Of a DNA stretch of 64,000 nt, positions 9,620-58,277 are shown one piece after another (the stretch's first letter is position 1; every line of letters starts with the position of its first letter). Source of the DNA: Meiothermus sp. (GTDB taxonomy: Bacteria > Deinococcota > Deinococci > Deinococcales > Thermaceae); contig NZ_BPIJ01000002.1 of assembly GCF_026004055.1 (NCBI RefSeq), positions 63,803 to 127,802 on the forward strand, in the 5' to 3' direction. The translations under genes and the position numbers were made by a program. The notes beneath the pieces are model-generated. The model searched no databases and was not told where the DNA came from. It saw only the letters and a program-made list of their open reading frames with translations.

Positions 9620-9696
9620 TAGCGGCTTCCGGTGTGCCGGCGGATCACCCGCTAGAATTTGGCCAAATCCGGTATCATACCGGCTTCACAAAGATA

Positions 9697-10212
9697 GAGC
9701 GCTCTTCACAAATATCGAGCCATCGGGGACTAAGTGGTCTGGTAACTAAATTTCCGAAGTTATGTACCGCACACCGAATACATCGTTGTAGAGATTCCAT
9801 CCCACTTCGGCCCCCGAGATGGCCTAAAAACGCCCTCCCTACCGCGTAGGGAGGGTGGGGGAGGGTATCAGGCAAGGCCCCCAATCCGCTGGGTGAAGGG
9901 CCAGGTCAGCCACCCCACCTGGCCTCCCCTACGCAGTAGGGGAGGGAAGGGGCGAAGCGGGGTGGGGTGCTTTTTGCATGACCGTACAGGCAAGGCACCG
10001 AAGGCCCAGGTTTACGAGACACGGCGCGTTCTGAAGGCTAAACCCCATACTGCGTATTTTGTTACCAGACCACTAAGAATCTTTTGCCCTGGACAGAACG
10101 TAACATGCGTCTGGGCCCAGACGCAACGCAGACAAGCGTGCCTCACCGAGGTGAGGCACGTCTGCTTGTCCCTTCTCGTTTTCGTGGGCGGCCGCGTCTG
10201 TGAAGAGCGCTG
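9697..10212 (+). mobile_element. Family C element (TA-flanked), split by a family A insertion
   Basis: The left end GAGCGCTCTTCAC (9697) and right end GTGAAGAGCGCTG (10212) are inverted and flanked by TA on both sides (9695-9696, 10213-10214). The right half contains the perfect palindrome TGCGTCTGGGCCCAGACGCA and a second GTGCCTCACC/GGTGAGGCAC hairpin. It is interrupted at 9734-10073 by a family A element. The rest of the 9620-10264 gap holds no gene I can support. Confidence 0.75.
9734..10073 (+). mobile_element. Family A element (A6), nested in family C
   Basis: Perfect 13-bp terminal inverted repeats GTGGTCTGGTAAC/GTTACCAGACCAC are flanked by a 3-bp direct repeat TAA (9731-9733 and 10074-10076). 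The 340-bp interior differs from other A copies. It carries CCCTCCCTAC-type GC-rich inverted segments and no coding sequence. Confidence 0.8.
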
Positions 10213-11689: not shown

Positions 11690-11869
11690 TGCTCCAATAC
11701 TCGTCCCGATAGTCTAAGAAATAGGCCCCCCCTGGGTGCATGAGGAGGCCTTAATCCGACCTTGAACTTTGTGTCAGATTTTGCTTATGAGGCCAGGAAA
11801 TATAGAAACTGCCGCTTTAATCCAAGGTTGGATGAATCTGCGATACTTCCTATCGCGCCCTTCACAGAG

Positions 11870-11900
11870 CCGAGTGGCTCAAAATTTGTGAAGAGCGCTC
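11870..11900 (-). repeat. Family C end fragment
   Basis: On the minus strand this is GAGCGCTCTTCACAAATTTT followed by GAGCCACTC, matching the left end of family C elements. No right end is visible nearby, so it is a solo remnant. The surrounding 11690-11913 gap shows no gene. Confidence 0.6.
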
Positions 11901-54942: not shown

Positions 54943-55042
54943 CCTGCTCAGATTACCCGAAGGGGCCTATTGGGTTGAACGCCAAATTGCCGAGCAGGGG
55001 CCATGCCGACACCCATTAGCTATACGCTGACAATCGACTATA

Positions 55043-55072
55043 GAGCGCTCTTCACAAATATTGAGCCATCGG
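55043..55072 (+). repeat. Family C left-end fragment
   Basis: TA then GAGCGCTCTTCACAAATATT and GAGCCATC, matching C1. No right end follows before the next gene, whose stop is at 55079. Confidence 0.6.
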
Positions 55073-55078
55073 CCGTGC

Positions 55079-56023
55079 TTACGCTCTAGGCACCGCAGAC
55101 ATGCCCCGGGCGGGCTGCCGCGGACCGCGGTAGAGCAGATCCTGGGCCTGGTTCAGGGCCTCCTCCAGGGTTAGGCCATTACAAACGACCCAGACTACCT
55201 GGGCCTTCCCAAAGCGCTGGCTCAGGTGCTCGGTGAGCTGGTGTCCGCTAACCATTCCAATATGTAGGCCGCAGAACTGGTCGTGATCGAGCCGGTACAG
55301 CCCATCGCCCTGCCGCAAAGCCTCCTGCATAAGCTGGGCCATTTCTTGGCGAAGGTTTTGGGGGTCTTTGGAATCCTGCGTTCCCCATAGCCAGTAGGAG
55401 AATAAAAGCGGCTGATCGGTACGGCTGGCCAGGGCCTGGTAGCGCTCGTAGTCGGCCTCGAGGGCCAGGCGGGTACTCAGGCCGGTCTGGCGATCCCGCA
55501 GGGCTGCCTTGGATAGCTCTTGCTGGGTGACCTCGAGCCGATGAAGCGCCTTGAACATCGAGAGCCCAACCAGTCCGCCCAACGCCCAAACCGCCCATAC
55601 CGCCCAGTACGGCCCCGAATCGGGGTGGGGCAGTAGCATCACCAGGAGGATTAGCCCCCCCAGCATGAGCCACAACCCGCCAAACAGACCCAGCACCGTC
55701 AGGCCCAGGGTGGCCAGGGCCGCACTGGCATAAAGGCTTATCTCTGGGTGCCATCCCAGGGTGGCCCCACCCCCCGTTTGCCGAAAAACCCACACCAAGA
55801 GCCCCAAGGCCAGCCCTAAGTGAGCCGGTGTGATCCACTGGGGATAACGGCGAGCCAGCAGCCAGGCCACCAGGGTAGCCGCCAGGTAGACCCCCGCTGC
55901 CCCCCGGAGGGTCTCCGACCCCGTCCAAAGCTGCGGCAAAGCCAAAGCCGCGCCCCCCACCCAGGCCGCGCGCCAATACAAATGGTGAAGCCAAAGCCCC
56001 ACCGCTTCAGACCCGTGCAACAT
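55079..56023 (-). CDS. Membrane protein with degenerate GGDEF domain
   Basis: 314 aa. Six or seven hydrophobic segments fill 10-160, followed by a GGDEF-like region. The lead-in RDRQTGLSTRLALEADYERY (177-196) matches the RDxLTGLxNR motif. The active-site loop reads LDHDQF (245-250) instead of GGDEF after QGDGLYR. The domain is also short. Probably catalytically dead as a diguanylate cyclase; a sensor or protein-interaction role is possible. Confidence 0.75.
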   Translation of the reverse strand: MLHGSEAVGLWLHHLYWRAAWVGGAALALPQLWTGSETLRGAAGVYLAATLVAWLLARRYPQWITPAHLGLALGLLVWVFRQTGGGATLGWHPEISLYASAALATLGLTVLGLFGGLWLMLGGLILLVMLLPHPDSGPYWAVWAVWALGGLVGLSMFKALHRLEVTQQELSKAALRDRQTGLSTRLALEADYERYQALASRTDQPLLFSYWLWGTQDSKDPQNLRQEMAQLMQEALRQGDGLYRLDHDQFCGLHIGMVSGHQLTEHLSQRFGKAQVVWVVCNGLTLEEALNQAQDLLYRGPRQPARGMSAVPRA

Positions 56024-57766: not shown

Positions 57767-58107
57767 ATGGCGGGGCTCTCCGACACCGACCCCAAAGTGG
57801 CGCGGCTGCAAATTGAGTTGCTGCGGCAGAGCAGCCCGGCAAGGCGATTCTCGCTCATGGCCAGTTGGTCAACTCTGCTGCCACAAGCTTCGTTCCAAGA
57901 GGTCAAACAGCACTACCCCGACGAGCTAGGAGCCAAACTAGAGCGCTCTTCACATATTATGAGCCATCCGACTTCGAAAAAGCTTTGTCCTGGACAGAAC
58001 AGTGGCCGCCGGGATGGGCGGCCACGTCTGTGAAGAGCGCGATAGAGTGGGCTCGGCGACTGTACGGTTCGGAGATAGCCGAGCGATTACGGAATCACCT
58101 ATGCTAG
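57767..58107 (+). pseudogene. Small gene interrupted by a family C element
   Basis: 57767-57940 encodes MAGLSDTDPKVARLQIELLR and continues to ...DELGAKL. Then the element intervenes. 58045-58107 resumes with EWARRLYGSEIAERLRNHLC and a stop. Removing 57941-58044 (element plus one TA) joins CTA and GAG in frame to give a 78-aa protein. Its TDPKxxxLQIELLR opening is typical of small proteins encoded before nucleotidyltransferase-like genes. The stop overlaps the ATG of the following remnant. Confidence 0.8.
57941..58042 (+). mobile_element. Family C element (C3), 102 bp
   Basis: GAGCGCTCTTCAC at the left and GTGAAGAGCGCGA at the right, flanked by TA at 57939-57940 and 58043-58044. Shorter than C1 and C2: only the GGCCGCC...GGCGGCC stem remains inside. 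Insertion into TA is typical of IS630/Tc1-mariner-type transposition. Confidence 0.85.
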
Positions 58108-58277
58108 GCGATGTCCCCAAAGCCATTGGCAACATCGTCGCGGTTTTTCATCGGCTTGGTGTTGAGTACCGTATTGGTGGCTCGGTAGCAAGTTCAGGGG
58201 CTGCTCGAGCAAGCCATGGCCGAGACCGTGCTAGGCTGGCTATGGATAACTTTGGCTGGCCTCAACTGGTTTGTTGA
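58101..58277 (+). pseudogene. Remnant of a nucleotidyltransferase-like gene
   Basis: Starts MLGDVPKAIGNIVAVFHRLG and VEYRIGGSVASS, the N-terminus of a nucleotidyltransferase-fold family (xxRYxIGGSxASS). After SS the family sequence stops. In the next frame LLEQAMAETV resembles a C-terminal helix of such proteins. This suggests an internal deletion of most of the gene. Overlaps the stop of the interrupted 78-aa gene, so the pair was probably one operon. Confidence 0.55.

Follow-up and report, generated by a model that had tools for sequence, protein, structure and literature searches.

The question raised by positions 57767-58107 of the 64,000-nucleotide Meiothermus sp. stretch that we analysed (the window, part of a 3.18-Mb genome of Meiothermus type assembled into 3 contigs) is how a small reading frame came to be broken there, and by what. 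As the sequence stands, insert included, a chimeric ORF of 88 aa starts from the ATG at 57767. Removal of 57941-58044 (104 bp, one TA left behind) joins GAKL to EWARRLYG and leaves an intact 237-bp ORF whose product has 78 aa (MAGLSDTDPK...GAKLEWARRLYGSEIAERLRNHLC, then the stop codon). The first-pass annotation had claimed just this restoration of the frame, and both translation and the orthologues described below bear it out. The interrupted gene is made up of a 5' part of 58 codons (57767-57940, plus strand), delimited from the reading frame and the 79-aa orthologues in G015 and G009, and a 3' part of 20 codons and a stop (58045-58107, plus strand), delimited from the reading frame and the orthologue alignment.

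Relatives of the 78-aa product are present in 7 of 17 Meiothermus congeners, and the protein has no family match in Pfam or NCBIfam. In G015, G009, G003, and G014, the orthologue lacks the element, sits 3' of the same MFS-transporter gene, and aligns to the element-free version with no gap across the junction; because these close relatives keep the gene unbroken, the insertion is real. Differences from the G015 orthologue fall 14/13/40 at codon positions 1/2/3, which argues that the ORF was a genuine protein-coding gene under constraint. At the position of the TA, G015 carries TG and the other three carry TC, so these alleles confirm the two-base register of the junction rather than the TA itself.

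We are left with little doubt that the gene was split by the insertion of a MITE with duplication of a TA, a judgement that does not extend to the identity of the mobiliser. In the mechanism that we propose, a DDE transposase acting in trans would recognise the two GCGCTCTTCACA ends and insert the element at a CTAG site inside the small protein-coding gene; the central TA would be duplicated in the process, and the insertion would shift the frame and so split the 78-aa ORF. The locus provides a documented case of a gene broken by one MITE copy.

The arrangement at 57939-58044 is TA, GAGCGCTCTTCACA (57941-57954), the interior of the element, TGTGAAGAGCGCGA (58029-58042), and TA (58043-58044). 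The MITE itself, defined from the sequence and from its genome-wide copies, occupies 57941-58042 on the plus strand; it is 102 bp long (104 bp with the right-hand TA) and has no coding capacity. It is flanked by the left copy of the duplicated TA (57939-57940), where empty alleles keep one dinucleotide, and by the right copy (58043-58044), placed from the sequence and the orthologue alignment. Since it makes no difference which TA is taken as the remaining copy, the excised stretch could equally be given as 57939-58042. The terminal inverted repeats are 12 bp long and perfect, with GCGCTCTTCACA at 57943-57954, preceded by GA, and its counterpart on the minus strand at 58029-58040, which reads TGTGAAGAGCGC on the plus strand and is followed by GA; over 20 copies, 95% of the cells in the repeat are paired. 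Outside the repeat, the two ends disagree at positions 1-2, where GA stands against TC, or against CA in composites. We also considered GA as the duplicated dinucleotide, which would require a 100-bp excision. This is ruled out by the orthologues, which align without gaps only when 104 bp are removed, and also by the single TA at other empty sites.

To obtain those other sites, we joined the flanks of copies L010, L011, and L022 and searched for them in the congeners, with the alignments made from the original loci. Uninterrupted sites with a single TA were found for L010 in G003 and G016, for L011 in G016, G009, and G014, and for L022 in G009 and G016. These three loci demonstrate the TA target duplication directly and, together with the locus studied here, establish an element of 102 bp that duplicates TA on insertion. 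The borders and the TA duplication proposed in the first-pass annotation are thus upheld, whereas its expectation that copies would be flanked by TA holds for most but not all of them: among 82 complete distinct copies, TA is present on the left of 64, on the right of 75, on both sides of 59, and on at least one side of 80, the rest lacking it on both. In G003 (L274), the very TA that holds copy L011 in our genome is occupied by another short element with TA on its flanks, TAGAGCGGCCTCCCACGAAT...GTGGGAAACGCGATA.

The element belongs to a multi-copy family. When the 104-bp sequence was used as the query, 40 matching places were scored in this genome, from which the stretches around element copies were taken for closer study. 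Of 18 Meiothermus genomes, 11 gave matches, the number per genome varying by species from dozens to none. Outside Meiothermus, there were partial matches in three genomes of two neighbouring genera and no match in any other genome among the 111 searched in the order; the plasmid collection gave no match to the element. End-motif matches in named records of a public collection likewise cluster in Meiothermus, with scattered single matches elsewhere. The end motif GAGCGCTCTTCAC occurs 272 times in this genome at up to 2 mismatches, compared with 41 times for the reversed control, and AGCGCTCTTCACA, at up to 1 mismatch, 265 times in congener G010 compared with 0; in the window, the motif is found 8 times against 1.3 expected. 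The end pattern is not due to chance.

The commonest copy length is 104 bp, and copies up to 809 bp contain no transposase ORF. Although MITEs are well known, this family of them is new; our literature search returned no description of a Meiothermus MITE family, and the comparisons above provide exact borders for one that is abundant and apparently undescribed. It resembles bacterial MITEs in being short and non-coding, with inverted repeats, a target duplication, many dispersed copies, and insertion inside genes, but differs from the usual ones in that many Meiothermus copies are nested composites.

What moved the element is less clear-cut, because a TA duplication fits both IS630/Tc1-mariner transposases and the IS427 group of the IS5 family and does not by itself identify an IS630 mobiliser, a caution that applies to TA duplications generally. 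We fetched 91 transposase loci from the genus (DDE_3, DDE_Tnp_1, and DUF4096), a non-exhaustive sample in which none was flanked by a pair of GCGCTCTTCACA ends; where pairs of ends stood as far apart as those of an IS, the sampled loci held only MITEs and composites, and no autonomous element. This lack of an autonomous element among the loci and end pairs examined counts against the proposed mechanism, in which mobilisation in trans and the chemistry of the move are inferences.

An IS5-family transposase of the IS427 group is weakly favoured, with about an even chance of being the mobiliser. Captured Paracoccus elements of this group, 832-865 bp long, almost always gave 2-bp duplications (PMC3281130), and IS5-family elements of 832-877 bp in Meiothermus include TA-flanked ends that start with GAG; this, taken with the different ends of the host's own IS630-like elements, is what tips the balance. 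In G010, IS5-family elements have the end TAGAGCGTGTCTG and the TA-flanked ends TAGAGTGTGTCTGAATAG/TAGAGCGTGTCTGAATAG, and a G002 element has the TA-flanked GAG-type end TAGAGGGTGTT. The MITE end shares TAGAGCG with the right end of L300/L324 (IS5 family) before the sequences diverge. However, this agreement amounts to ~7 terminal bases including the TA, the interiors are unrelated, and no IS with GCGCTCTTCACA ends was found in the sampled loci.

The first-pass annotation had instead pointed to an IS630/Tc1-mariner transposase that inserts at TA and duplicates it, which we now regard as a possible but doubtful mobiliser. TA duplication at four loci agrees with it, as does the occurrence of DDE_3 transposases in 14 of 18 Meiothermus genomes, including three identical IS630-like copies of 1.1 kb in this one. 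The ends of those three copies (TACCAACTCTACGACGAGGTGACAC) are nevertheless unrelated to those of the MITE, and no IS630 element examined carries MITE ends; the delimited ends of members in the genus (TACCAACTCTACG, TAATACCAAACCAC, and TACACCGTCGT) share only the TA with GAGCGCTCTTCACA. Moreover, at up to 3 mismatches no fetched DDE_3 locus was flanked by a pair of MITE ends, and the copy-rich genomes G010 and G016 have no DDE_3 match, albeit in fragmented assemblies. The target context does not discriminate between the two families: YTAR, the context looked for as a mark of IS5/IS427, surrounds 32 of 59 copies, compared with a 13% background, mainly through the right-hand purine and with little preference on the left, and CTAG is a preferred target of IS630 as well. 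Another source, or one now extinct, is a further possibility that we consider as doubtful as an IS630 origin.

The element probably inserted after this genome and the congeners with empty alleles had diverged. It is improbable that these alleles are excision products, the element being older and lost in the congeners, since the four genomes with clean, gap-free sites would need repeated precise loss. The junction differs in G010, which also lacks the element and is 92% identical in DNA to this genome over the upstream 325 bp; its orthologue (L081, ~1660) has separately lost 14 bp (TAGGAGCCAAACTA) right up to the insertion point, a loss that could be read as the scar of an imprecise excision. 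It could also be a coincidence. The insertion had further been described as recent enough that no other frame-breaking changes had accumulated. Recency is weakly supported, because no full-length copy elsewhere in the genome is more than 90% identical to this one (whereas identities of 97-98% occur with composites of the family), 237 bp is a small target for frameshifts, and only a remnant is left of the adjacent gene. This remnant (58101-58277, plus strand, starting MLGDVPKAIG...) is truncated and resembles the start of a nucleotidyltransferase-like ORF of 212 aa that follows the small gene in G009 and has nucleotidyltransferase-family matches at sub-threshold level only; its shortness in this genome indicates that the gene pair was decaying.

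When folded, the element forms a long stem that contains an inner hairpin, GTGGCCGCC-GGGATG-GGCGGCCAC (58002-58025). In longer copies the loop of this hairpin is a site of nesting, and in other copies it is inverted. Although this fold is very stable (z -5.4) and two pairs of the inner hairpin have changes on both sides, with 96% of paired cells standard, it is most improbable that selection for an RNA or regulatory structure (a REP/BIME-like repeat or a hairpin that is transcribed) chiefly accounts for the repeat in place of transposition, given its precise TA duplication and empty sites, the terminal pairing expected of any inverted-repeat transposon, and a G-U excess over A-C on the element strand that is modest (78 vs 42) and derives from few shared variants; an RNA family as such is rejected, there being no Rfam match and no convincing strand-specific G-U signal.

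Among 42 classified copies of this genome, the inner loop is GGGATG-like in 4 and inverted, CATCCC-like, in 6; in 24 its place is taken by additional palindromes of 23-187 bp, and the remaining 8 copies lack recognisable arms. The occurrence of the 24-bp hairpin in both orientations (copies L009-L048; 4 forward, 6 inverted) suggests hairpin inversion. Composites of 400-809 bp (L091-L108) contain other TA-flanked MITE families, all inserted at a single internal TA, while the hairpin loop holds nested palindromes; one nested composite of the same family lies at about 9695-10212 of the window (plus strand, borders approximate). Two composites are 97.6% identical to each other, so composites seem to move as units. 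Tentatively, these copies may reflect stepwise, structure-guided growth, with palindromes added at the inner-hairpin loop, unrelated TA-flanked MITEs added at one internal TA, composites transposing as units, and the inner hairpin flipping. If true, this would let a MITE become longer with no transposase gene of its own, and the nested composites offer a tractable case for studying MITE size change. At the other extreme of size, a very short copy of ~50 bp at 11851-11900 of the window consists of little beyond the two inverted repeats, and L202 contains a similar one with its ends ~37 bp apart. A fragment from the left end of the element is also present at 55042-55080, at the 3' end of the minus-strand ORF 55079-56023.
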